DNA of 64,000 nucleotides. It comes from Quercus robur (taxonomy: Eukaryota; Streptophyta; Magnoliopsida; Fagales; Fagaceae). The DNA is taken from NCBI RefSeq assembly GCF_932294415.1, contig NC_065535.1, positions 69,247,362 through 69,311,361 on the forward strand, in the 5' to 3' direction. How positions within the stretch are numbered: position 1 is the stretch's first letter; each line of letters opens with the position of its first letter. The position numbers were made by a program, and so were the translations under genes. Shown one piece after another: positions 45,871 to 64,000 of this stretch. Under the pieces are notes generated by a model that did not search any database, was not told the DNA's origin, and worked only from the letters and a program-made list of their open reading frames with translations.

Positions 45871-47264
45871 CTTTTTGTAGGGTCACGCTTTTCAGGCCAA
45901 ACCCAAAATGAATGGGACTTTAGACCTGTGAGCCCGGTACAATGAATTTGTAGAGAGTGAGCCAAAAAGCTAGGCTTTAGCATATGAATATTGGTCATCA
46001 TGGTACTCTTTACGATCAAGTTGAGGTGGACCAGATTCATCAGAGAGGATCGGTCCTTGCCACGGTCTGGGGAGCCTTTTCTTTTCGGTGCCTCTGGTGT
46101 GTTGGGGGGTCTCCATCCCGCCCTTTCTGTCTCACTTTACTCCTTTTTATATTAGTTTCCTTCCTCCTGAATGAGGCCCCTAAGGTAGGTACTTGTCCTA
46201 TCAGTCCTTCCTTCCAGTTGTTGGGAGTGGTTGTAAAGACAGAGAAGTATGGCCGTGTCAGGCACAAGGCACCGAATGTGATAATGGCAACCTTTCCTTT
46301 CAACACTTTCATTGCCCTTTTCTGTTTTAGTACTTTTCCCGCTCCGTGAGATGATAGGAAGTGTCACTACCGGTGGCAGGTTACCTCCTCCATCCTCGGC
46401 TACATTGTGCTGAGGAGGACTCTCCCCACGGCCAAGGAGAGATTTTTTCCATGGGCTGAGCCTTTGGCCCAATGTAGTCATCGACATAGGCCTACTGGTC
46501 TTTTACCCCACACAATAGCCCCTCAAAATCCTGCCATCCGGCTCCTCGGGCGGAGAGGAGGGTTTTGGTGATATTGGGCCTCTGTTTCGGCTTGCCACGT
46601 CAGGCCCTCCACTAAAGGCCAGAGCCTCTTCGTTTGCCCAAGGCGCGGTCCCAACTGCGAGACATTCTTTTAATCCATCCAAGCCACGTCCCTGTCGCTT
46701 CGGTATACAAGGCGTGCTTTAATGAGAGTTCCTTCACGAGGTGACATAAATTCAACGGTTGAAGATCACTTTGGAAATTAAGCAAGATTTATTTCGCTTG
46801 TAATTTCTTTTTGGAGATTTGGGGGAATTGATTGTCACCAAATTTGCCTCCCATATAAGAAGCACGGTGGGAGGTAATTCCCTTTATTTGCAGACCCTTT
46901 AAGCTTTCAAATTCCTAACTCTCCAATTGTGCCCAAAGTCCTCATTACTAGTGTGACTGAGCCTTAGAAGGTGAAATGGTCAAGACTAGGGTGAGGGTGA
47001 AGGAACCATACCCTCTTCAGAAGCCTTGGGTATCCTCAAGATTCAGAATAGCCTGGTCAGGGCAAGGGAGACAAAGGCTCAAGACATTTTTTCTCCTCGA
47101 CAAGGTAAGAAAGGAGCCTCTTCTTCCTTCAGCCAAAATCCGAAGCGGGTGGGGGTCGCATCAGATTTTTGGTGTGACAGCACTGGGACCTCCATCCGGT
47201 GCCGTATGTCATACACGTAAGGGCTTGGATTTCCCATCACCGGTACCATCCGTGCTTGCTCGAT

Positions 47265-47470
47265 TGCTGTTAGAACAATACTTGCTCGGTTGCTGCTAGA
47301 ACAGGTATGGGGATTGGGCATCCCCGCTTCTTCCTCTCTTCCATCACTGGTGCCACCCAGGCTTGCCTAGTCGCTACTAGAGCAAGGTTGCGAACCAGGT
47401 GCCTCTACCTCTTCTTTTCTTCCCTCACTGATGCCATCCAGACTTGCCTAGTCGCTGCTAGAGCAAAATT
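47265..47470. repeat. Imperfect direct repeats in the LTR-element interior
   Basis: The words 'gcttgcc/tagtcgctgctagagcaa' recur with a period near 95-100 bp, for example at about 47362 and 47450, with more diverged copies upstream near 47260. They have no coding meaning. Confidence 0.5.
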
Positions 47471-48088
47471 GAAGGATCTATCGTCCCCGTGTATTCCTTC
47501 TTCTTCTTCTTTTTTCCTTAGTTAGCTTATGATTACAAGCTTGTCTAAGCCCTTTTATGTATTTTGTACTATCTCTTTTTCTAATAAAAGATGATTTTAT
47601 CGTATTTTATGTATCCTTTATTTTCTGCAATAATCAGTTTGTGAATGAATGTGCCGGTGTCTTTTCTTTTGAACCGCACTTAGAACCGATGCCCTTGTCG
47701 GTAAAGAGTTATTACTTTGAACTTATCGGAACCCACGGGCACAACAACGCCGACTTTAAATAGGTTAACTATATAAGACTAACTGAGATAACAGTCATAC
47801 GTTCTGTATTGCGAACGGGGTGACTGCCTGAGGACGTGTAATCTAAAATAAACTATCCGAGGGGATCGTTGGGTCCTAGGGTTCTTTCTCGCTTTTCCAA
47901 TGATATCCGTAGCTTTAACTCATTTTAGGTGTTTGGTCCGAGGACCGAGGCATGACCGTACCTAGTCTAAACACTCAAAAAGGCACCCCCGTGTGTTAGC
48001 CTTCATAAGGCCGGGAGGCCGAGGACCACACGAGACCTCCATTCCGCCTAGGACTTAGGCCTTTCTTGAAGTTGCTAGTTTCCCGTAG

Positions 48089-48362
48089 GTTTGAGTCCGA
48101 GGACCATGCAAGATCTTGGTTCTATCTAGCACTTAGGCTCTTGGAGTGTCTAGTTTCCCCATAGGTTTAAGTCCGAGGACCATGCAAGACCTTAGTTTTG
48201 TCTAGCACTTGAGCTCTTGGAGTGTCTAGTTTCCCCATAGGTTTGAATCTAAGGACCATATAAGACCTTGGTTCTGTCTAGCACTTCGGCTCTTGGAGTC
48301 TAGTTTCCCCATAGGTTTGAGTCCGAGGACCATGCAAGACCTTGGTTCTTCAAGAGATTCCG
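48089..48362. repeat. Four tandem copies of a ~75-bp unit
   Basis: Units beginning 'gtttgagtccgaggaccat' start at 48089, 48165, 48241 and 48315 (spacing 76, 76, 74). The fourth is partial. The 13.2-kb duplication junction at 61508 corresponds to a point inside the fourth unit (48317), so this repeat may have helped the rearrangement. Confidence 0.85.
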
Positions 48363-50809
48363 GTTTAGCCCTCGGTTCCCCTATCCGTAGGGGATTCAGT
48401 AGACCGGAATATTATAGGTCTCAAGAGATAGCCCCTTGACAAGTGCATGGGGGCGCATATCTGATGTCCGAAGCCCTTTGAACTGCGCTGTCTAGCGATC
48501 CTCCCCTCGTAATGAATCATTTCGAAGTGTGACCAAAAACGGAGGCTAAGCTATGATGATGGCGGTGTGTTCCTGGAAATGATGGGGGGCTTCAGTGCAG
48601 CTCACATCGCTGCCAAAACTATCCTCCCAAGGGATTCTTGTAGCTTAACCATGACTAACCGTTATATTTGCCAACGCACAAGCTTTTCCCGCAGACGGCG
48701 CCAATTGTAGAGTCACGTTTTTCAGACCAAGCCCAAAATGAATGGGACTTTAGACCTGTGAGCCTAGTACAATGAATTTGTAGAGAGTGGGCCAAAGAAC
48801 TAGATTTTAGCGTATGAACAACGGTCATCATGGTACTCTTTACGATCAGGTTAAAGCGAACCGGATTCATCAAAGTGGATCAATCCTTGCCACGGTCTGG
48901 GGAGCCTTTTCTTTTCGATGCCTCTGGTGTGTTGGGGGGTCTCCGCCCCGCCCTTTCTGTCTCACTTTACTCCCTTTTTATAGTAGTTTCTTTCCTCCTG
49001 AATGGGGCCCCTAGGGTAAGTACTTGTCCCATTAGCCCTTCCTTTCAGTTGTTGGGAGTGGTTGTAAGGACAGAGAGGTATGGCCGTGTCAGGCACAAGG
49101 CACCGAATGTGATAATAGCAGCCTTTCCTTTCAATACTTTCATTGTCCTTTTCTGCTTTAGTACTTTTCCCGCTCCGTGAGATGATAGAGAGTGTCACTA
49201 CCGATGGCAGGTTACCTCCTCCATCCTCGGCTACATTGTGCCAAGGAGGACTCTCCCCGCGGCCAAGGAGAGATTTTTCCCTTGGGCTGGGCCTTTGGCC
49301 CAATATAGTCATCGACATGGGCCTACTGGTCTTTTACCCCACACACTTTTGTAACAATGAAATGTTACTAAAACGTTTATTGTGGCAACTAGCTTCCCTC
49401 TGGGCCCTGGTTTTCGCCTCTACAAGTTCCTCATTAGAGAAAAGAAGATTTTCCCTATGCCTATTGGGATTTTTTTTTTTTTTTTCCTCAAAATTTATAT
49501 ATGCTTACTGACACAACTTTGTTTCTAGCACATGGATTTTTCACTATAACAAAACATAATAACAAAACCCTTTAAAGCCCCTAAACATTATAATTGTTCG
49601 TTCATCCATTTTTGTTTTTAAATTTTTTAGTAGCACATTGCAGAGATCCGACTGAACCCCCAAAAAGAAAAGGGAGGGGCTGATTTAGTGATTTTAGAGA
49701 GGTCTACAATCAAATTTATCGAAACACATCATATTTGTGTGCGTTTCAAAATGCTCAGATGTCAGATGCATCATGACCAATTCAGGAGTTGAAAATTACC
49801 AAAAAAATAATTTGATGCACTTGTATATATTAAACTACTTTTAGATTTAATTTTATGATAGCTATATTGCTAGAGCAAAAGCCATTACTTTTTTTTTAAT
49901 TCCAAAAGGCATGTCAATATATTAATTAGACTCAAAAGAAATAAATAATTCAAAAATTTTGGAGAGTGAGTGACACGTATACATGGCTAAAGGCACAAAC
50001 ATATAGTATATGCTCCAATGCAGATGTTCCATATAAAAAGGCTAAGCACATGTTCATTCATATGTTGGTCTGAAGTTCTTATAAGCTATCACTGAATAGA
50101 AAGGGTCAGATCCAGACAACAATCCCAGCAGCTTCCTGATCCAACTGAATGGTGATTTGTCCTCTTGAGCACCACCAGTAGCTGGTAACTTTCGAATAAT
50201 TTCTGGTTGAGTGAATCCTTCCACACATTGGAAGTACTGCACTACTAGTTGGACCCTGCCATATCCAGTCGCATCTCTCCATGCACTTATGGCTTTCTCG
50301 TAGAACAATCGATTGCTAAAGCTCACAATGAATGCCCCTCCTGGCCTTAGCACCCGAAACACCTCTGCAAATACCTGCAAATTGCAATGATGTTAGTCAA
50401 TAGTTTTCTTCTCCTTCAATTTTAGTTCTGAGTTGGCTGCTGAATACCCTTTCACCAGTTTAATCTATTAACCATGTCTCTCTTTGGTTTCAGTTGTAAT
50501 TTTCAATATGTGATTGCTTTTCAGGGTTGATGTTTGCAAGCATGCGGATCATGTCAGACGAGAATTTTTATAGGATTGTAACACTGGTTGCATATTCTTT
50601 GGTTTTGGGGCGTGGGGGGAGGGTGATTATGAAAGAACTGTTACATGAACTAGAACATTGCAGTACATTATGTTGAGTTTTTTGCTGCTCAAGTCTTGTC
50701 AGAATAAATAAATTTTACACTATGGAAGAGAGTATCTTTTGAAATTAGTCCCACTACACTCAAGCAGAATACACAAAGGAGTTCTTTTTGAAAAATAAGT
50801 TTTATTGAT
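48317..50809. repeat. First copy of a segment repeated at 61508-64000
   Basis: This 2.49-kb segment (end of the LTR-element interior, its right LTR, flank, methyltransferase exon 2 and part of its intron) recurs at a constant offset of 13,191 bp. In reading the two I found one clear substitution (50095 a, 63286 c) and no indels. Confidence 0.95.
49351..50053. other. 3' flank of the methyltransferase-like gene
   Basis: AT-rich with a T-run at 49470-49486; carries the 3' UTR of the minus-strand gene. No further gene is seen. Confidence 0.4.
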
Positions 50810-52567
50810 ACTTAACACATTACACAATTTTCTACACACCACACACTCTTTGCACTTCTACCATTGCTACTTATAACTACACTTGCCAGTAAAGCTTCAT
50901 AAAGAATACAGGAAAGACAACTAACCTATACTGTAATCCAAAACAAAGGAGACAAGAAAATAAAAGAATGATACATTTCAGTGAATGGCATTCATGTTTG
51001 AAGCCAGACTTATTTCACCCTTTGATAGTCAAAGACAACAACTCAACAACTAAAGTGAGAAATTTCCTGTTTGAGTTGGAAGAGGCTCCAAAGGCAATAA
51101 ACATTTAAGCCATGAACTCAGCTTCTGCCACAAGTTACAAGTATGATTACTATTCCCTGTTGAAAGATAACAACCAGAAACTGGCATTTGTTGTTTTAAT
51201 TAGAAGACCAACATTTTTGGGGACTGGAAAGAGATGTATAAAAAAAATGTTGTTCAAAAGTGAGGGAGAAGTAATTTGGTGAGGCTCCAAAGATGGAGAA
51301 TAATTTTGATTTGGGGAAGGGGATTGGGAGTGCACAGATAAGCTATAGATTAGGATTTGGAAACTGAGAAACTTGAGAAAAGAAATCCCTCCACTTCTGG
51401 AGTTTACCTGAAGGAAATCTTCTTAGTAAATTAGTATGGTGATTTTTTCTTTATATAGAAAATTAGTATTGTGATTTGTGCAGCCAGTGCTGTTAGCATT
51501 TCCTTGCTGAGTGGGACGACTGAAGCTTATATGCTAGCCTTGGAAGATCTAGGAAATGCTACTGAAACAAACCAAAAAACTAAAATCGGGGCTCTATCAT
51601 TACTATTAATTGGTTGAAAACTCCACGAGAATTCAAGAGGCACAAAGCCCAGTTCAACCTAGCAAGCTGTAAGATCAATGTCCACATCATAGAACTAAAA
51701 GTTTCGATATAATTTAGTGACATTGAAGGAATAATCAATCATCCAACTTCATTACACTAAAACATATATTAGTATGTACAGTTTAAGGTAGTTTTACAAG
51801 TGTATGACCACAGAATTTTTGGTGCTAGCTTACCAATAACTCAACTGTAAAAAGTGAAAATTTTTCTCTTGTAAAAGATGTCCCCATTTCAGGATCAGTA
51901 GTGTAGAGAGCAATTTGATTAAAGTTTCAGAGTGATCAAAGTTTTTTCAGTGCATGGCATGCTTGTATGCCTATAATTAAGACACTACAAAAAGACTTCT
52001 TTTTTCTTATGATCTTACCTTCTCTGGCTGTTGAAGATACTGTACACTCACAGTGCATAGCACTGCATCAAAGCTACAACTTTCCAATTCAAGCTTTTGA
52101 TCCTGATTGAGATCCTTCACAAAGAAATAGTCCAGCTGAGAGTTCTTTGCAAGCTCTTGTGCATTTAGTCCATGTCCCACCACTTTTTTGTATGTTACTT
52201 CCTTAGGTAGATGGCTAATCCATGAACTCATGAGGTCAAGAATTTCCCAACTTGGTCTCAACCTTTCTTTATAGATATTGGTCAATGTGGATATAAATCC
52301 ATCATCAACATGGGTCACAAACCTTGGATAAGCATAGAATTCTCGGTCCGGGTAGGTGTTTAGTTTTGATCTACCTTCTTGGGTCAGAACAAGGCGTTTG
52401 ATTTTGCCTGCTGAGGATTGTTTAGGTTGCTTGCCTTCATTTAAAGTGTTTGCAATTTGGAATGGAAGGATTTTGGTTTTGTATAACGTAGAAGAGGTGG
52501 TATGTGAGTGTAAATTGGTTGGAACATATTGGTGCCATGGCTTGGAGTTTGGATGAAAGGTGAGCAT
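50054..52567 (-). CDS. Methyltransferase-like protein (UbiE/type 11-like), two exons
   Basis: Exons 52567-52019 and 50374-50054 join at GT-AG sites to 289 residues. The C-terminal two-thirds follow the class I SAM-methyltransferase order: ERLRPSWEILDLMSSWISHLP (108-120 in the motif I position, with the usual GxGxG replaced by DLMSS), YKKVVGHGLNAQELA, LDYFFVKDLNQDQ, SFDAVLCTVSVQYLQQPEK (motif II) and FRVLRPGGAFIVSFSNR (motif III). I know this as a conserved plant family, often annotated only as 'methyltransferase type 11'; its substrate is unknown to me. The first 45 residues are Ser/Thr-rich and could be an organelle-targeting peptide. A decayed relative lies upstream (53735-54600), and exon 2 is duplicated at 63245-63565. 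Confidence 0.85.
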
Positions 52568-52854
52568 GTGTAATGAAGTTTTTCAAATAAGACTGTGTGG
52601 GTGTGTTTTAACAAAAATTTGCAAATTGTTGGAGATAACATGTTAATGGTTGTGAGAAATTGTAGAATCATATTTGCGGCCTAATTGGTTGTTGGGCTTA
52701 TGCATACTGTATTGACTGGCCCACAGTTGTCCATTTGGGCGCAATCATAGCTAGTGGTATGCTTAGTGACATTAAAAATGCCACACTCACTCGAGATATG
52801 ACACAGTACACATTGTTCAATGGTTGATGCACACAAACACAATTAGTTAATATC

Positions 52855-53180
52855 ATAATGAAATTTTTTATTTATAAGGAAGTGGTGCTTTAGTTTTTGC
52901 CCAAACCATTTCAAATTATAAATTTTTGGTTAATGATTTAGCTTTTGCCCAAACCATTTCAAATTATAAATTTATGGTTAATGATTATTATAATTGGGTT
53001 GAAATCATTATTTTTTAACTTAATAGCTTAAAATTTTGATTCTTTTATTTGTATTTTCAAGAAAAAAAAAAAAAGATTGTTATATTAAATGAATGTTAGT
53101 TTGGATTTTCAAGGAAAAAAAAAAAATTTGTTCATACTTCAGCCCCCCTCAATGGAAACTCCTGGCTCCGTCCCTGATCT
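52855..53180. mobile_element. Right end of a hAT-like element
   Basis: 'cagcccccctcaatggaaac' followed by 'tcctggctccgtccctg' at about 53140-53177 is the familiar right terminus of non-autonomous hAT-like elements. A matching left end could not be located; a 60-bp direct repeat (ttttgcccaaaccatttc at about 52898 and 52945) lies inside. Confidence 0.4.
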
Positions 53181-53734
53181 TACTGGGCCACTTGTCCGAA
53201 GTGGAGAAATGAAAATCACTTAATCGAAAAGCACCAATGTGGTACTAGCCTAAACTTCTCTTAAACTAAAATTAGAACTTACAAAATCCAAAAATACTAA
53301 AAATAATGGAGTTTCTAGAGTTTTTCACCCATACATTGGATTGGGTGTTATATGGGGTTTATTTAAGAGGTTTATGATCATCTCTTCTATGATTTTTTCC
53401 ATTTTTCGGAGTCATGGCATAAGTATAATTGGTACTGTGACATTTATGAAAAATGAGAATCTCAGGATTTGTACCCATAACTAATTAAGATTTTAGATTC
53501 ATTCATTACAAAAATCTATTGAAAAGATACACTTTATTTTTTGGAATATGGTATTGTTTATAAAAAATTTCATGGAATGTAGACTTGAGTTAGATAATTT
53601 TTATATGGCTTGAAAATAATCCAAAATTGGAGAGGCGGTAGACACAAAGTTACAGTGGATTTGGTTTCTATTTGTACAATTCTGGGGCAACAAACAAAAA
53701 AAATTAAAATTTGAGGTATGCCATCACTATTTAA

Positions 53735-54600
53735 CTGCTGGTTGAAAGCTTCAAACTGGAAAGAGAATGAAATCTAGAGGCACAAAGCCCAGCACTGCCT
53801 TAGCAAGTTGTTGAATCAGTATACATCATATAACAGAAACTATCAATTTAACTTGGTGACAAAGAAGGATTGGATTAAAGTTAGATATTGCAGAGATTTA
53901 TGTATTAGTATGTACCGTCTAAGGTAATTTTACAAAATTGATGGTGGGTTTGACAGTAAAAAAATTTAGTGTTAGTTTATGTTTTTTGATAAATGAGTAA
54001 GCCCATTAAATAATTTAGTGTCCAACCGTGAGTTATGTCACTCCACTTCAAAACTAATTAGTGACGAGAAAGACATGCTCGAGTCTTTTATGACATTTGA
54101 CATATATACGTGCTTGTATGCCTTTAACTAGAACGCTACAAACGTACTCATCCTGAGTACATATCTGACCTTGGCTGTTGAAGATACTTCACACTCATGG
54201 TGCATAACAGTGCATATCAAAGCTCCTGACCTTGATTTAGATTATTCACTATGCATAGGTTTTTCTTTTAACCAAATTAAGGCAATTAATCATTTTGTTG
54301 GAGAGAGAGAGAGAGAGAGAGAGAGGTTTTGAATAATGTAGAAGAGGTGGTATGTGAGTGAAAATTGGTTGGAACATATTGTTGCCATGGCTTGGAGTTT
54401 GGATGAAATGTGAGCATGTGTAATGAAGTTTTTCAAATAAGACTGTGTAAACAAAAAGATGCAAATTGTTGGAGATAACATGTTCAGGGTTGTGAGAAAT
54501 TGTAGCTTCATATTTGAGGCTAACTAGTTGTTGGGCCATAAGTGGGCTTAGCCATACTGTATTTACTGGCCCAATTTGGGCCCAATTGTAACAACAGACC
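53735..54600 (-). pseudogene. Decayed tandem copy of the methyltransferase-like gene (5' part)
   Basis: 54330-54590 matches the start of exon 1 and upstream flank of the intact gene (52480-52740), reading MLTFHPNSKPWQQYVPTNF, then SHTTSSTLFKT, and then breaks off at a GA microsatellite. 54170-54245 matches the end of exon 1 (tggctgttgaagatac near 54171) with an internal deletion of most of the coding part. 53740-53945 matches the intron at about 51610-51800. So an older duplication copied exon 1 and intron; the coding core has since been lost. Confidence 0.85.
54301..54326. repeat. (GA)n microsatellite at the pseudogene deletion point
   Basis: A 26-bp GA run sits exactly where the pseudogene's exon 1 sequence stops. 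Confidence 0.85.
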
Positions 54601-55446
54601 CACGTTTACACAACCCATCTTTCTCCCTTGCAAACTATTCTCTCTGCAAGTTTTACAGGCCCCATCCTTGGAAGATAATGAAGTAGTACAATAGAAAGAA
54701 AAATAATGAAAATAATCACAATCATGCTATTAAAAATAAGACTAGATTTTATTTTCAAATGATATTTATTTATTGATATTTAATTATAAAAAAAAATGCT
54801 AAACTTAAAATTATTGTCTTATTGTATAGAGTTTTAGAGAATTATTTTAGTAAATATGAAATTACCTCTTTTGTGTGATGTAGAACTCTCTTTGAGCAAG
54901 CTTGAATGAGACCAGTGGCGACTCCAGGATTTTTTTATAGGGAGGTCAATAGTGTCTTGAGCTAAGATTTTGTTGTGGGGAGTAAAAAAATAAAATGATT
55001 ATTACTTTTTTTTTGCATATACAATTGTCATATTACATACACTAATTTAACATAATATTCTAAATAGTATACAATACAACTATACTGTACAATAGTCTTA
55101 AAAAATAATTAATAGTTTAAAGATTAGTAAGAAAACAACAATTGAATGCATAAATAAATAAAAATAAATAACTAACCATAATATTTGTCAAATTAATAAT
55201 AATTTATTATAATCATATGTAATATCAATTAAATAAAAATATATGATAAAGAAGAATAGTAACACACCTAAGAGTATGTCTGGGAGTAAACGTGATATTA
55301 AGGAAAAAAATAGTAACTTATATAAGATTATGCTTTTGAAATGTATGGATTTTTAACCACACACGTGGTCATTCTCTTGGAATTTGAGCAAACACTAAAA
55401 GACTTTTTGGACTCGAAAAACTATAGAACACTTATCAAACTAACTA
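54601..55446. other. AT-rich flank of the LINE
   Basis: A left hAT-like terminus (cagtggcgactccagg at about 54914) is present without a clear partner. The rest is AT-rich with no gene. Confidence 0.4.
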
Positions 55447-55486
55447 TTTTTTTTTTTTTTTTGAGAAAGAAGACAAAGATGTTTTA

Positions 55487-58400
55487 TTAAGGCAGGCTAG
55501 ATAAATCTGCCTGGAAAACTGATACAAGGTCTGGTGGGATGTCACCCATCCAAACGGTCATAACAGGTAGACCTTTTGCCTTACGAGCTAGGGAGTGGGC
55601 CAGCTTATTGCACTGGCGTCGTGCCCAGGATACAGAAAAAGTTGTAAAAAAGGAACTGAGGAATAAAATATCATTTATAAGATGACCATGCTGTGCTAAA
55701 CTTCTACCTCTGTTTTTCAAAGCTTTAAACAGAGGTTCATTGTCGCCTTCCAGAACGATGTCTTCTAGTCCGAGTTCCAGTGCAAGCTCCGTCGCTCTCC
55801 GTGCTGCAAGTGCTTCGGTCTCGATCACAGTGGCTGGCAAAGGTATTTGTTGCGTCAGTGAGACCAGTGCGTGACCTTCACTATTCCGTATTACAATTCC
55901 CAGTCCAGCTGTATTGTCTTCAACGAATATTGCCGCGTCGTAGTTTATCTTGTATCGTTGAGCTTCCGGCGAAGACCAGGCCATCTGATGTTGACCCCGG
56001 TGCAGAGATGGATTCGCTGAAGGTGCGAGAGCTTCGAGTTGTCTTTCCCGAGCATGCTCTGTTATTTTGTCTAAGGGCAGAGCTGTTTTGCCGAGGCGAA
56101 GATTGTTGCGGCGATTCCATAGGTTCCATATGACAAGAGAGAATAGTTCCGGGTCCTTATTACCTGCAAAAACAAAACCCATAACGTCAGTGAAACTTTT
56201 GCTACCCTTGAGTGCTTCATGATTCCATATTGGAGTTTGATTCCATAAGGAACTCAGCACTGGGCAGCCATACAGAGCGTGGACCGTGTCTTCTTGGTGC
56301 ACTCTGCAGATATCACACAAACCATCAGAGGTGATTTTACGGCGAGCCAGGTTCACTTTAGTGGGTAAGGAATTTAAGCATGCACGCCAGATCAGGTTTT
56401 TAACCTTATTTGGCACCTCCAAACTCCATACTTTACTCCAGAGAGGTTTCATGGCTTCAGCATTCGAGGGTCCCGGCTGTTGGAGTGTGTTTGCTTCGAA
56501 TAAGAACCTGTACCCTGATTTAACAGAGTATTCTCCGTCCGGATTAAAAGGCCAAATCAGGACATCTTCTTGAATGGAGCGACACAGAGGAATATTCTTA
56601 ATGGTAGCTGCTTCAAAGTCATAGAAGAGTCGGTCAAGCATATCATCTTTCCACGTTCTGTTCAATGGGTCAATCAAGTCACTCACCCAGACAGTACCAT
56701 CCCCATCCGGTTTTGGTGTTAAAATTCTGGGTTTGTGTTTCACAGGGAGCCAATTATCTCCCCACACCCGTATTGAAGTTCCCGTACCTATTCTCCACAC
56801 CGCTCCACGCTTTATTACCTCCCTTCCTTTTAATATGCTTTTCCAAGCATATGAAGCATTACTTGGGGATCTTGCTTCCATCACAGAGGTATTGGGAAAA
56901 AACTTGGCTTTGAAAACCTTGTAGAACAATGATTGGGTGTCATGCAGAAGTCTCCACGTTTGTTTTGCCAAGAGTGCATCATTAAACATGGCTAAATCTT
57001 TGAAGCCCATGCCTCCTTGTGATTTAGGCTTACATAATTCCGACCATTTCACCCAATGAATCTTTCGATTATCACCTCTTTGACCCCAAAAAAATTTGCG
57101 AATTAAGGCCTCAATCTCATTGCACAAAGTGAGTGGTAACTTAAAACAAGACATGGTGTAAGTGGGGAGAGCTTGTGCGACAGCTTTAATAAGAATTTCT
57201 CTACCCGCTTGAGATAAGAGCTTCGACTCCCATCCTTGTAGTTTCTTCCAAATTTGTTGCTTTATGTGGGTGAAGCTCTCAGTCTTGTTTCTACCCACTA
57301 GGGAGGGGAGACCCAAATACTTCTCATATTGTTGAACTACCGTTACTCCAAGCATATCCTTGATCCTATCTTGGATATCAGTATTGGTGGACTTGCTAAA
57401 AAAGAGTGTGGTTTTAGCTCGGTTTATTTGTTGACCAGAGGCACGCTCGTATTTAGCAAGAATGTTCAACAAAGCTTGGCATTCATTCTCCATAGCCCTA
57501 CAAAAGATTAAGCTATCATCAGCAAAAAGTAAATGGGTAAGTTTAGGACCGTTACGACTGATTGATACTCCGCGAATATCACCATGTGTTACTGCTTTAT
57601 TTATCAATCCATGCAGCCCCTCTGTGCACATGAGGAAAAGGTATGGGGATAAGGGATCCCCTTGTCTAAGACCCCTTGATGGTGTGATGTGACCGTGGGG
57701 TTCCCCATTTATCAACACCGAATATGAAGCCGTAGTGATGCATGCCATCATCAGTTTCACCCATCTCTCTTGGAAACCCATTTTCACCAAGACTCTCTCC
57801 ATAAAAGACCACTCTACCCGGTCATATGCCTTACTCATATCGAGCTTCAAGGCCATAAATCCTGTCTTCCCTTTATTATGATTTCTCATGTAGTGCAGTG
57901 TTTCAAAGGCCACCAGAATGTTATCTGAAATCAAACGATTAGACATAAAAGCACTTTGGTGTTCTGAAATGAGATGAGGCATAATAATTTTCAATCTATT
58001 AGCCAGAACTTTTGAGAAGATTCTATAAAGCACATTACTCAAGCTTATTGGCCTAAATTGAGACACATATTCTGGATTCTTAACTTTCGGTATCAAAGTG
58101 ATAAAAGAGTGGCAAAGTGATTGCGGGAGCACACCACTATTGAGATAGTGCAAAATGGAGTGAGTAACATCAGACCCAATCAAAGACCAATAGTTTTGGT
58201 AAAACAGAGGGGGCATACCGTCGGGGCCGGGAGATTTAAGGGGAGCCATCTGCTTTATTGCCACCTCCACCTCTTCAATAGTAAACTCCCTGTCAAGCTG
58301 AACATTCATGTCGGGGGTAACCACATATGGGATAACGTCAATCACTTCGGTCAGGTCATTTGGCTCAGCGGATGAGAATAGATTCTGGTAGAAATCAAGA

Positions 58401-59578
58401 ATAGTAGTATTCACTTGTTCTTGCCCACCACACCAGTTACCCGTGGCATCTCGTAACTTAGTAATGTAATTCCGTCGGCGACGTTGTGAAGCTTTGCTGT
58501 GAAAGAATTTTGTATTACGGTCACCATCTCTAAGCCACATTACTCTTGAGCGCTGGCCCCACATCTTTGCTTCCTTATCCAGCAACTGGTTAACTTCCCT
58601 TTCTAACCACTTCATACGGGTTGAGTTTCCAGTCCGAGCTGTCTCATTTTCTGCCTGCTTGAGTTGCTTACGCTTTGTTTCAAGGTCTCTTCTAACACTT
58701 CCAAAACATTTTTTACTCCACCTAGTCAGCTCCCTTCCGCACTTATCTATTTTATTGAGAACCCTGGTGTCCCACGGGTCTACAACTCTCTCCCTCCACA
58801 CGGCCTCAACTGTAGTAGTGCACCCTTCATCCGTAAGCCACATTTGTTCAAATCTAAATGGTTTGTGGAAACTCGAATCCATCCCTTCCGGAGTTATCCA
58901 CAACGGTTTGTGGTCAGAGGTTGTAACATCTAGATGGTGGATTTTTGTACCCGGGAATCTAGTGAACCAATCTGTGGTGGCTAAACCTCTATCAAGTCTC
59001 TCAAAGACTGTATAATCTGTAAAGTGTTTATGCCAAGTGTACGGGAAACCCACGTATCCCAAATCCATGAAACTACAATCATCAAGAGCATCCCGAAAGA
59101 GTTGCATCTGTGAATGTGGCCGGGTTCTTCCCCCTAATTTTTCCGATTGCCGAGTGATCTCATTGAAATCTCCAGCACATAACCACGGTGAAGTTCTCCT
59201 CATTTTCAAGTTCCTCAGCTTATCCCATGATTCATGTCTTTTTTGGGTGTCTGGTTCACCGTAGAAACCGGTGAATCTCCATTCCTCAGGTGTATTTTTA
59301 TTAATTATGGTGTCTATATGGTTCGGGGAGAAAGTTTCAATATCCAGGTTGAATTCTTCCTTCCAAAATAGTGCTAGACCACCTGCTTTATTTCTTCTTG
59401 GAACCTCAAACAGATTCTTGAATTGAATTCTTCTTTGCACTTGTTCTAGCCTAGCTTTATCTGTCCATGTTTCGGCTATAAACACAACAGAGGGATCTTT
59501 TGCCCACACCAGTTCTGCAAGCTGATCAACTGTCAATGGGTTCCCAAGCCCACGACAGTTCCACACTAGGAGACTCAT
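55487..59578 (-). CDS. LINE ORF2: endonuclease, reverse transcriptase, zf-RVT, RNase H
   Basis: 1363 residues. The apurinic-like endonuclease spans about 1-230 (VWNCRGLGNP at 6, AETW near 35, GDFNEI near 137, TSDHKPLW near 220). The reverse transcriptase, about 450-760, has RPISLSNVLYRIFSK, LKLDMSKAYDRVEW, GLRQGDPLSPYLF and the catalytic LLFADDSLIFC. A zf-RVT region lies near 1060-1130 (VPNKVKNLIWRACLNSLPT, GLCDIC, HALYGC). The C-terminal RNase H-like domain has INYDAAIF, ETEALAARRATELA and LEGDNEPL, keeping the D-E-D triad. All expected catalytic signatures are present. It starts at the ATG inside the ATGA overlap with ORF1, so translation by termination-reinitiation is plausible. Confidence 0.95.
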   Translation of the reverse strand: MSLLVWNCRGLGNPLTVDQLAELVWAKDPSVVFIAETWTDKARLEQVQRRIQFKNLFEVPRRNKAGGLALFWKEEFNLDIETFSPNHIDTIINKNTPEEWRFTGFYGEPDTQKRHESWDKLRNLKMRRTSPWLCAGDFNEITRQSEKLGGRTRPHSQMQLFRDALDDCSFMDLGYVGFPYTWHKHFTDYTVFERLDRGLATTDWFTRFPGTKIHHLDVTTSDHKPLWITPEGMDSSFHKPFRFEQMWLTDEGCTTTVEAVWRERVVDPWDTRVLNKIDKCGRELTRWSKKCFGSVRRDLETKRKQLKQAENETARTGNSTRMKWLEREVNQLLDKEAKMWGQRSRVMWLRDGDRNTKFFHSKASQRRRRNYITKLRDATGNWCGGQEQVNTTILDFYQNLFSSAEPNDLTEVIDVIPYVVTPDMNVQLDREFTIEEVEVAIKQMAPLKSPGPDGMPPLFYQNYWSLIGSDVTHSILHYLNSGVLPQSLCHSFITLIPKVKNPEYVSQFRPISLSNVLYRIFSKVLANRLKIIMPHLISEHQSAFMSNRLISDNILVAFETLHYMRNHNKGKTGFMALKLDMSKAYDRVEWSFMERVLVKMGFQERWVKLMMACITTASYSVLINGEPHGHITPSRGLRQGDPLSPYLFLMCTEGLHGLINKAVTHGDIRGVSISRNGPKLTHLLFADDSLIFCRAMENECQALLNILAKYERASGQQINRAKTTLFFSKSTNTDIQDRIKDMLGVTVVQQYEKYLGLPSLVGRNKTESFTHIKQQIWKKLQGWESKLLSQAGREILIKAVAQALPTYTMSCFKLPLTLCNEIEALIRKFFWGQRGDNRKIHWVKWSELCKPKSQGGMGFKDLAMFNDALLAKQTWRLLHDTQSLFYKVFKAKFFPNTSVMEARSPSNASYAWKSILKGREVIKRGAVWRIGTGTSIRVWGDNWLPVKHKPRILTPKPDGDGTVWVSDLIDPLNRTWKDDMLDRLFYDFEAATIKNIPLCRSIQEDVLIWPFNPDGEYSVKSGYRFLFEANTLQQPGPSNAEAMKPLWSKVWSLEVPNKVKNLIWRACLNSLPTKVNLARRKITSDGLCDICRVHQEDTVHALYGCPVLSSLWNQTPIWNHEALKGSKSFTDVMGFVFAGNKDPELFSLVIWNLWNRRNNLRLGKTALPLDKITEHARERQLEALAPSANPSLHRGQHQMAWSSPEAQRYKINYDAAIFVEDNTAGLGIVIRNSEGHALVSLTQQIPLPATVIETEALAARRATELALELGLEDIVLEGDNEPLFKALKNRGRSLAQHGHLINDILFLSSFFTTFSVSWARRQCNKLAHSLARKAKGLPVMTVWMGDIPPDLVSVFQADLSSLP

Positions 59579-61335
59579 TGCTTCTGGCAGGGCTGTTGAA
59601 CAGCCTCTGCCAATATCTGAACATTTTCCTTACCAAGCTGAGAAACCGCCATTTTCTTGTTGGGTAACCCAGTATGGTCTGCATGGTTGTTTGCTGGCCT
59701 CTTTTGTCCCAGAATGTCAAGTGTGTCCGAGGGTGGTACCCCTCCATTTCTGAGTAAACGTTTCCAGGTTGTAAGGTTGGTTTTGTTTTGTGGAGTTACG
59801 TTTAGGATGGAAGTATCAGAGAGAGGTTTGGGTGGTGTAAGTGTCGAGGTAGAATTTTTGAAGGGAGTGGCATGGTATTGTGTTGGTATGGTATCATGGG
59901 TTAACGTGGGATTAGCTTTTTTTGGAGATATTTTCATGTTGGAGGCATCAGAGAGAGGTTTGGGTGGTGTAAGTGTCGTGGTGGAGTTTTTTAAGGGAAT
60001 AGCATGGTACTGTGTAGTTATGGAATTATGGGTTAACGTGGGGTTAGCTTTTTTGTGTGAAGGTACTGTCAGGTTGGAAATATCAGAGAGAGGGATAGGT
60101 GGTGTTGGTGACGTGTTAGGACATTTGGGATGAGAGGTGGGGTCATGTAAGTCATGGGTATTTTGGAATGACGTAGTATGTATTTTGGTATGAGAGGTGG
60201 GGTCATTTGTTTTTGGGATATTATGGGGTGACGTGGGGTGGGTGATATTTTGGGTTGGGATATTATGGGAGTTATTTTCAGGCAGAGGCAAATCATATTT
60301 GCTTAGATCGCGGTCTATATCTTCAAGAACAGTCTGGAAATCATTCATGTGAGTAGAGTGCGGCATAAATTCCGGGTTTGATGGAGACAAGTTTGCAGTG
60401 GCCTTACCAGCAAGGGAAGTATCTTCTGCCTGCGGATTTGACGCCATTTCCGAGTCTGTACTTTCCATCTCGGGCTGTGTTGCCTTTTCAAACCGGTTTG
60501 ACTTCTCAGTCACTGGCGCGTGACGGGTGGGTCGCTGGGAATGTTCTCCGGTCTGCTTGGCTGCCTTCGACGCGTAAAAGCCCGGGACTGAGAGCACCGA
60601 TTTGCTCTTTCCATTAAACGGCGAAGCCTTGATCCATGATCCATACCGTTTCTCCGATTCAGGTAACGTCCCTTCACTTTCGATCCATAGATCGCAGTCT
60701 TTATCACTGTGCGTCAAGCATCCGCACCAGTAACACAGGTTAGGAAGTCGTTCGTATTTGAAAGTGACCCATTGCTCCCTACTGTCATCAAAGGCTATCA
60801 CACGCCCCCTGCACAGGGGCTGAGATATGTCCACTAACACCCGGACCCTCATAAAACTCCCCCCGTCCTCTGTTGGAGCATTCTGCAAGTGGCACACCTG
60901 ACCGGCTGTCTCACACAGCCCCTCTGCCACTTTGTTGTTCATGAACCTCACCGGAATCCCATGCACCTGAACCCAAAAATGAGTGAGGTTAAAGGACAGA
61001 TTTTCAACTTCAGAGTCCGCTTCGTACCGTTGCAGAATCATAAGATTTTTATCGTAGCTCCATGGTTCGTTTGCAAGGATATTTTCAACGTCAGTTTTAC
61101 TGTCAAAAATGAATAGTACAATATGGTTTCCAAGATTTTTCAATCGGAAACCATTTTTGGATCGCCATAAAGGTTGAAAAGTAGCTGCAATGGCGTCCAT
61201 ATTTAAGGCTCTTTTTGTTAAGAATTTGGCTGCGATAATATACTCCGTCGTAGCCAAATCTGATCTCATCTGAAACTTGGGACCTTCCCGTTGAGAAAGA
61301 GAGAGTCCGTTCCATTTTTTTGTGAGTTCGTCCAT
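59575..61335 (-). CDS. LINE ORF1: DUF4283 and CCHC-type RNA-binding protein
   Basis: 586 residues from MDELTKKWNGLSL at 61335; an in-frame ATG at 61392 would add 19 hydrophobic residues encoded by a T-run, which is less likely. The N-terminal DUF4283 domain (about 20-180) has FQPLWRSKNGFRLKN, NHIVLFIFDS, NEPWSYDKNLMILQRY and FWVQVHGIPVRFM. A zinc knuckle of the CCHC_4 type follows (LCYWCGCLTHSDKDC). The C-terminal half is Pro/Ser/Thr/Asn-rich with internal repeats: TLTPPKPLSDAS and KANPTLTH occur two to three times, reflecting a 120-bp DNA repeat at about 59800-60100. It presumably coats LINE RNA. Confidence 0.92.
   Translation of the reverse strand: MDELTKKWNGLSLSQREGPKFQMRSDLATTEYIIAAKFLTKRALNMDAIAATFQPLWRSKNGFRLKNLGNHIVLFIFDSKTDVENILANEPWSYDKNLMILQRYEADSEVENLSFNLTHFWVQVHGIPVRFMNNKVAEGLCETAGQVCHLQNAPTEDGGSFMRVRVLVDISQPLCRGRVIAFDDSREQWVTFKYERLPNLCYWCGCLTHSDKDCDLWIESEGTLPESEKRYGSWIKASPFNGKSKSVLSVPGFYASKAAKQTGEHSQRPTRHAPVTEKSNRFEKATQPEMESTDSEMASNPQAEDTSLAGKATANLSPSNPEFMPHSTHMNDFQTVLEDIDRDLSKYDLPLPENNSHNIPTQNITHPTSPHNIPKTNDPTSHTKIHTTSFQNTHDLHDPTSHPKCPNTSPTPPIPLSDISNLTVPSHKKANPTLTHNSITTQYHAIPLKNSTTTLTPPKPLSDASNMKISPKKANPTLTHDTIPTQYHATPFKNSTSTLTPPKPLSDTSILNVTPQNKTNLTTWKRLLRNGGVPPSDTLDILGQKRPANNHADHTGLPNKKMAVSQLGKENVQILAEAVQQPCQKQ
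59790..60110. repeat. ~120-150-bp in-frame tandem repeat in LINE ORF1
   Basis: 'gagagaggtttgggtggtgtaagtgtcg' recurs at about 59819 and 59952, with a third diverged copy at about 60086; 'gtgggattagctttttt' and 'gtggggttagctttttt' recur between them. The frame is preserved through all copies, so the disordered ORF1 tail varies by repeat number. Confidence 0.75.
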
Positions 61336-61906
61336 GGAGGTAAAGTACAGTGTTTCCCAAAGACCCAAGAAAAAAAAAAAAAAAACCAACAAACCTTAGT
61401 GTAAACTTGTTACTCTAAGGGACAGAGGCACCTCCAAAGAGGGACGACACTTCTACGGTCTAGGAGAAGTTAGAGTTTCTAACTTTCACTAGTAGCCGAG
61501 AAACTTGTTGAGTCCGAGGACCATGCAAGACCTTGGTTCTTCAAGAGATTCCGGTTTAGCCCTCGGTTCCCCTATCCGTAGGGGATTCAGTAGACCGGAA
61601 TATTATAGGTCTCAAGAGATAGCCCCTTGACAAGTGCATGGGGGCGCATATCTGATGTCCGAAGCCCTTTGAACTGCGCTGTCTAGCGATCCTCCCCTCG
61701 TAATGAATCATTTCGAAGTGTGACCAAAAACGGAGGCTAAGCTATGATGATGGCGGTGTGTTCCTGGAAATGATGGGGGGCTTCAGTGCAGCTCACATCG
61801 CTGCCAAAACTATCCTCCCAAGGGATTCTTGTAGCTTAACCATGACTAACCGTTATATTTGCCAACGCACAAGCTTTTCCCGCAGACGGCGCCAATTGTA
61901 GAGTCA

Positions 61907-62536
61907 CGTTTTTCAGACCAAGCCCAAAATGAATGGGACTTTAGACCTGTGAGCCTAGTACAATGAATTTGTAGAGAGTGGGCCAAAGAACTAGATTTTA
62001 GCGTATGAACAACGGTCATCATGGTACTCTTTACGATCAGGTTAAAGCGAACCGGATTCATCAAAGTGGATCAATCCTTGCCACGGTCTGGGGAGCCTTT
62101 TCTTTTCGATGCCTCTGGTGTGTTGGGGGGTCTCCGCCCCGCCCTTTCTGTCTCACTTTACTCCCTTTTTATAGTAGTTTCTTTCCTCCTGAATGGGGCC
62201 CCTAGGGTAAGTACTTGTCCCATTAGCCCTTCCTTTCAGTTGTTGGGAGTGGTTGTAAGGACAGAGAGGTATGGCCGTGTCAGGCACAAGGCACCGAATG
62301 TGATAATAGCAGCCTTTCCTTTCAATACTTTCATTGTCCTTTTCTGCTTTAGTACTTTTCCCGCTCCGTGAGATGATAGAGAGTGTCACTACCGATGGCA
62401 GGTTACCTCCTCCATCCTCGGCTACATTGTGCCAAGGAGGACTCTCCCCGCGGCCAAGGAGAGATTTTTCCCTTGGGCTGGGCCTTTGGCCCAATATAGT
62501 CATCGACATGGGCCTACTGGTCTTTTACCCCACACA
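61907..62536 (-). mobile_element. Duplicated copy of the Gypsy-type LTR and primer site
   Basis: Corresponds base for base to the LTR at 48716-49345, with the primer site at about 61889-61904. Only one LTR and about 400 bp of interior are present here because the duplication started inside the element; it is therefore a truncated copy that did not arise by transposition. Confidence 0.92.
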
Positions 62537-63244
62537 CTTTTGTAACAATGAAATGTTACTAAAACGTTTATTGTGGCAACTAGCTTCCCTCTGGGCCCTG
62601 GTTTTCGCCTCTACAAGTTCCTCATTAGAGAAAAGAAGATTTTCCCTATGCCTATTGGGATTTTTTTTTTTTTTTTCCTCAAAATTTATATATGCTTACT
62701 GACACAACTTTGTTTCTAGCACATGGATTTTTCACTATAACAAAACATAATAACAAAACCCTTTAAAGCCCCTAAACATTATAATTGTTCGTTCATCCAT
62801 TTTTGTTTTTAAATTTTTTAGTAGCACATTGCAGAGATCCGACTGAACCCCCAAAAAGAAAAGGGAGGGGCTGATTTAGTGATTTTAGAGAGGTCTACAA
62901 TCAAATTTATCGAAACACATCATATTTGTGTGCGTTTCAAAATGCTCAGATGTCAGATGCATCATGACCAATTCAGGAGTTGAAAATTACCAAAAAAATA
63001 ATTTGATGCACTTGTATATATTAAACTACTTTTAGATTTAATTTTATGATAGCTATATTGCTAGAGCAAAAGCCATTACTTTTTTTTTAATTCCAAAAGG
63101 CATGTCAATATATTAATTAGACTCAAAAGAAATAAATAATTCAAAAATTTTGGAGAGTGAGTGACACGTATACATGGCTAAAGGCACAAACATATAGTAT
63201 ATGCTCCAATGCAGATGTTCCATATAAAAAGGCTAAGCACATGT

Positions 63245-63565
63245 TCATTCATATGTTGGTCTGAAGTTCTTATAAGCTATCACTGCATAGAAAGGGTCAG
63301 ATCCAGACAACAATCCCAGCAGCTTCCTGATCCAACTGAATGGTGATTTGTCCTCTTGAGCACCACCAGTAGCTGGTAACTTTCGAATAATTTCTGGTTG
63401 AGTGAATCCTTCCACACATTGGAAGTACTGCACTACTAGTTGGACCCTGCCATATCCAGTCGCATCTCTCCATGCACTTATGGCTTTCTCGTAGAACAAT
63501 CGATTGCTAAAGCTCACAATGAATGCCCCTCCTGGCCTTAGCACCCGAAACACCTCTGCAAATAC
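63245..63565 (-). CDS. Second copy of methyltransferase-like exon 2
   Basis: 107 codons including the stop, with the same acceptor (cag before 63565) and the same sequence as 50054-50374 except one residue near the C-terminus (DPFYAVIAYK here, DPFYSVIAYK in the first copy). Exon 1 would lie about 1.6 kb beyond the acceptor, outside this window, at a position equivalent to 65,210-65,758 if the duplication is complete. Whether a full second gene exists cannot be seen. Confidence 0.85.
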   Translation of the reverse strand, partial: VFAEVFRVLRPGGAFIVSFSNRLFYEKAISAWRDATGYGRVQLVVQYFQCVEGFTQPEIIRKLPATGGAQEDKSPFSWIRKLLGLLSGSDPFYAVIAYKNFRPTYE

Positions 63566-64000
63566 CTGCAAATTGCAATGATGTTAGTCAATAGTTTTCT
63601 TCTCCTTCAATTTTAGTTCTGAGTTGGCTGCTGAATACCCTTTCACCAGTTTAATCTATTAACCATGTCTCTCTTTGGTTTCAGTTGTAATTTTCAATAT
63701 GTGATTGCTTTTCAGGGTTGATGTTTGCAAGCATGCGGATCATGTCAGACGAGAATTTTTATAGGATTGTAACACTGGTTGCATATTCTTTGGTTTTGGG
63801 GCGTGGGGGGAGGGTGATTATGAAAGAACTGTTACATGAACTAGAACATTGCAGTACATTATGTTGAGTTTTTTGCTGCTCAAGTCTTGTCAGAATAAAT
63901 AAATTTTACACTATGGAAGAGAGTATCTTTTGAAATTAGTCCCACTACACTCAAGCAGAATACACAAAGGAGTTCTTTTTGAAAAATAAGTTTTATTGAT

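Follow-up and report, generated by a model that had tools for sequence, protein, structure and literature searches.

How did a near-identical direct repeat come to lie at the right end of a 64,000-nucleotide (nt) stretch of Quercus robur DNA (the window; G000:C2:69247362-69311361 of a 785.7-Mb assembly with 42 contigs)? A first-pass annotation had taken it for a 13.2-kb tandem duplication, or an assembly duplication, of a segment carrying a methyltransferase-like gene and a long interspersed nuclear element (LINE). As stated there, positions 61508-64000 repeat 48317-50809. The two 2,493-bp stretches differ by a single substitution (A at 50095, C at 63286) and by no insertion or deletion; identity falls away at 48316/61507. 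The analysis set out below indicates that the duplicated unit is a 7,130-bp segment, which we call D, and that the D copies flanking the LINE are very probably a giant target-site duplication made by insertion of this LINE.

We compared the next 39.5 kb beyond the window with the window itself (coordinates above 64000 continue the window numbering). The match between the first two copies, D1 and D2, ran on to 68637, giving 7,130 bp in total, still with the same single mismatch. A 221-bp query spanning the junction was complete at two places in the genome, 13,189 bp apart. Thus, there is more than one junction, and it was seen again at 74696/74697. The parts follow one another along the chromosome as D-LINE-D-LINE-D, with three D copies and two LINEs. 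D is gapless in all copies: D1 at 48317-55446, D2 from 61508 to the window end at 64000 and on to 68637, and D3 at 74697-81826, outside the window. D2 has one mismatch to D1 and D3 has three, and the period is 13,191 and then 13,189 bp. The array stops at 81826, where D3 runs into a different flank without a third LINE. Between the two LINE copies (55447-61507 and 68638-74696, 3 extra nt included) there is no substitution, the only difference being one 2-bp length change in a homopolymer near the 5' end. The annotation had foreseen a second LINE past 64,000, and its picture of a very recent head-to-tail repeat that copied a whole gene along with an open-frame LINE holds. So does its period, at 13.19 kb, but the duplicated unit is the shorter D; the repeat is real, but its two-unit reading has to give way to an array that ends in D3, beyond the window.

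The LINE is encoded on the minus strand. Copy 1 occupies 55447-61504, with its 5' end at 61504 and its poly-A visible as a run of 16 T (55447-55462) that may include up to 3 target-derived bases; copy 2 occupies 68638-74693. The position of the 5' end was set by comparison with five family members, each with its own flank beyond it: matches start at the base equivalent to 61504 in four and at 61505 in one. The possibility that the junction lies inside a longer LINE was rejected, since the family members share this starting point. Comparison with these members also leaves 3 extra nt (61505-61507, TTG on the plus strand) between the LINE 5' end and D2, and the same 3-nt junction is found at both LINE copies. 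Members whose target-site duplications are short also have extra nucleotides at the 5' joint (5 nt in the case of C2:35.47M and 9 nt in that of C1:13.18M), and the 5' joint of the array LINE therefore looks usual for its family.

Two long open reading frames (ORFs) lie on the minus strand of copy 1. The ORF1 frame (59575-61395; 606 codons stop to stop) matches DUF4283 (E 2e-22) and the zinc knuckle zf-CCHC_4 (E 8.9e-16), and the ORF2 frame (55487-59629; 1,380 codons) encodes an endonuclease (Exo_endo_phos, E 4.2e-15), a reverse transcriptase (RVT_1, E 3.3e-35), a zf-RVT domain and an RNase H-like domain (RVT_3, E 1e-24). Counted between stops, the frames of copy 2 are 610 and 1,380 codons long. 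This is the domain set of a plant LINE type (DUF4283, endonuclease, reverse transcriptase, RNase H), and the element has a 3' poly-A and dispersed family members with a common 5' end. ORFs, domains and family 5' ends thus agree with the earlier annotation, in which this side of the junction is the 5' end of an intact LINE. Searches of viral contigs, plasmids and bacterial or archaeal genomes for LINE relatives confirmed none. Note that the ORF1 frame contains three tandem units of ~132 bp (59786-60184), the later ones 84% and 64% identical to the first.

Both edges of D coincide with ends of the LINE: the left edge lies 3 nt from the 5' end, and the right edge lies at the poly-A. On the plus strand every D ends in ...CAAACTAACTA, followed by the T run of the LINE at D1 and D2, versus TTTGATTAGACAG at D3. 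Up to 3 T are common to the target and the T run, so the target-site duplication measures 7,130-7,133 bp. We searched the genome with a 201-bp query across the join of D3 and its flank (L010:7900-8100, join at base 88/89), scoring the best 40 of 218 candidates, itself included. At least 39 other matches, 83-96% identical, were found, and all 39 cross the join without a break. Since these dispersed-repeat copies cross the join, the D3 edge is old contiguous sequence, that is, the intact target. The LINE thus interrupts at D1 and D2 a sequence that is uninterrupted at D3. On the LINE-sense strand, the uninterrupted target at the D3 end reads TCTAATC/AAATAGTTAG.

At the other edge, D1 begins within an LTR (long terminal repeat) element that is complete only there (45875-49345), whereas D2 and D3 start in mid-element, against the LINE. 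The LTRs (45875-46514 and 48705-49345) are 91.3% identical, in line with the tenth of differing sites estimated before, and the left edge falls, as noted then, within a 75-bp tandem-repeat unit, namely the last one of a 75/76-bp array at 48015-48349. Positions 48015-49350 lie within one BLAST match (90.8%, 6 gap positions) to L008, an independent copy of the LTR element. Because this unbroken match spans the left edge, the D1 left side is ancestral too. The empty site is thus recognized on the right in a dispersed repeat (at least 39 other copies) and on the left in one LTR-element copy. Interiors related to that of this LTR element are present at numerous sites across the genome.

The bases after the LINE 5' end (TTGAGTCC) differ from those before the poly-A (CAAACTAACTA). 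An ordinary short target-site duplication at the array LINE was rejected on this comparison, which was made by eye. As a control for chance repeats, we drew 300 random 120-bp stretches from the initial 27 kb of the window and compared each with the 10 kb lying 6-16 kb ahead of it; none had a same-strand match of at least 95 bp and at least 90% identity.

With D starting 3 nt from its 5' end and halting at its poly-A, the LINE is best read as the agent and spacer of the repeat, not as a passenger. The LINE was indeed copied, as first proposed, but the D edges lie at its ends. A single LINE RNA was very probably integrated by target-primed reverse transcription. The sequence shows the 3' poly-A attached to a site whose uninterrupted form remains at the D3 end, and the full-length 5' end, with 3 extra nt, attached to a point 7.13 kb off, on the side that yields a duplication, which leaves D on both sides. 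This joining of the complementary DNA end may have involved a second nick 7.1 kb away with fill-in, or a broken sister chromatid, two routes that the sequence does not tell apart. In a second step, unequal exchange between D copies may have turned D-LINE-D into D-LINE-D-LINE-D; D-LINE-D offers 7 kb of homology, and one exchange would suffice to yield three gene copies and two LINEs. Both LINEs have the same 3-nt junction and no substitution between them, which argues for one insertion that was later copied. The few pairwise differences between D copies (1-3 per 7,130 bp) point to a very recent event. With woody-plant substitution rates of 2.5e-9 to 7e-9 per site and year, it would date back tens of thousands of years.

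We surveyed 16 LINE insertions besides the array, chosen from longer match lists in which the other copies are mostly more distant. Kilobase-size target-site duplications are a minority outcome, found in 1 of the 16, versus short target-site duplications in 12; two insertions (C4:4.08M and C35:19.44M) fell into no clear class, and for C6:8.79M the LINE 3' end was not located, placing it outside the classification. Short duplications were matched exactly by script at C2:35.47M (15 bp), C1:13.18M (19 bp), C1:6.89M (11 bp), C1:24.71M (15 bp), C2:43.22M (17 bp), C4:60.68M (9 bp) and C2:37.92M (18 bp). Those at C35:10.48M, C40:50.04M, C1:20.69M, C37:46.23M and C35:48.57M (12-17 bp) were identified by eye, some being imperfect and most having extra nucleotides before the LINE. 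Two of these twelve, C35:48.57M and C2:37.92M, are less closely related LINEs, at 70-74% across the 5' region. The LINE at C4:4075832-4079687 (L061, L062, L072, L073) is a 99%-identical, 5'-truncated copy with no clear short target-site duplication, and is possibly an insertion with deletion; a repeat of the C4:4.08M 5' flank was sought within 10.25 kb downstream, and none was found.

The multi-kilobase case lies on C38 (G000:C38:30038345-30052087; L031, L036). Here a direct repeat of ~2.3 kb lies on either side of a LINE that belongs to the family of the array LINE (pieces 72-85% identical) and has its 5' end near 30,049,800. The upstream copy (2,273 bp) and the downstream copy (2,307 bp) are 85.9% identical, with 146 mismatches and 190 gap positions; when somewhat longer stretches were aligned with MAFFT, 91.6% of the columns without gaps agreed (2,055 matches, 189 mismatches). 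The upstream repeat stops ~6 nt short of the LINE, and the downstream repeat starts ~34 nt past the end of the LINE match, after an A-rich and TA stretch. The 3'-junction site is A-rich and its exact base is ambiguous. The case is older than the array and its LINE is interrupted. The architecture is the same: a direct repeat bounded by the LINE 5' end on one side and the A-rich 3' end on the other, making this a second case of the arrangement found at the array.

The 100-bp 5' flanks of 12 more distant LINEs had no near-identical copy within 20 kb downstream among the matches listed (two lists, for 7 and 5 LINEs, with the best 40 candidates scored in each; the L043 flank, a common repeat, filled much of the 7-LINE list). 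This set was drawn from 20 flanks, with L053, L054, L056, L058 and the pair members L041 and L048 excluded and the flanks of L039 and L050 already counted in the 16-insertion survey. Opposite-strand LINE pairs with the same 5' flank were seen at C4:8.81M and 9.40M (L041, L040) and at C1:53.89M and 54.65M (L048, L047), which hints at inverted segmental copies 0.6-0.8 Mb apart.

How does the giant target-site duplication compare with other explanations? Simple tandem duplication or triplication of a 13.19-kb unit that already carried the LINE would account for the constant 13,191/13,189-bp period and the near-identity of the copies. However, it leaves the period edge 3 nt from the family-defined LINE 5' end and the right end of the array at the LINE 3' boundary, and each unit should on this reading close with a LINE, whereas the last unit lacks one and runs into intact target. 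With an array that, as assembled, ends without a LINE, and with edges that are not independent of the element ends, we rejected this unit as highly improbable. An artefact of assembly throughout is equally hard to credit. The pure assembly duplication considered in the first-pass annotation predicts neither edges at both LINE ends nor a third copy ending in intact target; such coincidence with the element ends and the intact target repeat is unlike mis-joining, and the older, diverged case on C38 also speaks against it. More serious, though still unlikely, is a true locus of D-LINE-D, to which a third D and a second LINE were added by mistake when assembly or the joining of haplotypes crossed the 7-kb repeat. 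Repeats of 7 kb are prone to such errors, and the D copies are only 1-3 substitutions apart and the LINEs one 2-bp homopolymer length. Against an over-count stand the private substitutions in D1 (50095) and D3 (48458 and 48460), and the fact that exon 1 of the methyltransferase-like gene was found at full length nowhere outside the three D copies, with no leftover haplotype copy visible. The two D3-specific bases look derived, L008 (one outgroup) agreeing with D1 and D2. We consider the third D probably real. The D-LINE-D core, which rests on the element ends and the intact target sequence, appears much safer than the count of three.

Several observations weigh against a LINE-made duplication with later exchange. 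The nick at the 3' junction reads 5'-ATTT/G on the primer strand, degenerate relative to the L1 nick site TTTT/A. The left edge sits in a tandem array, where the alignment register to L008 is not unique. The D differences, each private to one copy, do not form the mosaic expected from a simple crossover and are uninformative. Among the resolved insertions outside the array, just 1 of 13 has a multi-kilobase repeat. Finally, the junctions and the copy number rest on one assembly.

Comparable events have been described in human cells. In cells deficient in nucleotide excision repair, the parts of PMC5223499 consulted describe L1 insertions with large target-site duplications (up to 5.3 kb per the text; table rows list 5,896 and 6,765). 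As there, a single insertion at the array is flanked by multi-kilobase direct repeats of target DNA. In contrast to those engineered L1 elements in cultured cells, however, the array represents a natural insertion in a plant chromosome, and its repeat holds a whole gene and, it seems, was later amplified. An L1-bridged tandem duplication in a human tumour, for which the consulted part of PMC7058536 proposes sister-chromatid bridging, likewise has the L1 between two copies, with its 3' end at an endonuclease motif and its 5' end joined downstream. That duplication spans 22.6 Mb, is somatic and involves a small L1, whereas the array involves 7.1 kb and a full-length element in an assembled genome. 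Among plant LINEs with a DUF4283 ORF1, poplar Celine, as described in the sections consulted of PMC11288735, resembles the array LINE in size (~6 kb), two ORFs, DUF4283, endonuclease and reverse transcriptase, and short poly-A. Its target-site duplications are 10-30 bp (at least 10 bp detected in 43 of 58 full-length elements), and, unlike at the array, no kilobase-size one is reported in those sections. A literature search by title and start of abstract, with subscription papers mostly outside its reach, found among the papers listed no plant LINE with a kilobase-size target-site duplication; perhaps such duplications are unreported in plants.

LINEs are usually credited with copying genes via RNA, as intronless retrocopies. 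The array insertion, by contrast, seems to have duplicated a whole gene, both exons included, at the DNA level, and the long direct repeats that it created seem to have recombined afterwards. We consider it possible, at slightly less than even chances, that this LINE family repeatedly produces multi-kilobase target-site duplications in the germ line, duplicating whole genes with introns and upstream regions at the DNA level, the giant repeats then seeding copy-number change by unequal exchange. Repeat edges that coincide with the LINE 5' end and poly-A form a signature that can readily be scanned for, so the share of young plant tandem gene duplicates made by LINE integration is testable. Likewise testable is whether plant repair genes control the process in the way that excision repair is reported to in human cells.

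D1 comprises the 3' part of the LTR element, the methyltransferase-like gene with its upstream region, and part of the dispersed repeat. The gene, present in each D, is of the Methyltransf_11 type (joined exons, E 1.4e-10) and lies on the minus strand, with exon 1, from its ATG, at 52016-52567 and exon 2 at 50057-50377. Further copies of exon 1 are at 65207-65758, where the annotation had expected one (near 65.2-65.8 kb), and at 78396-78947. Exon 2 contains 50095, the sole D1/D2 difference, which encodes Ser in D1 and Ala in D2 and D3. In a genome search, exon 1 was complete only in the three D copies; each D also contains an older, diverged partial copy of the exon-1 region (in D1, 54325-54573, ~85%, and 54111-54224, ~73%), indicating that the gene had been partly duplicated earlier.

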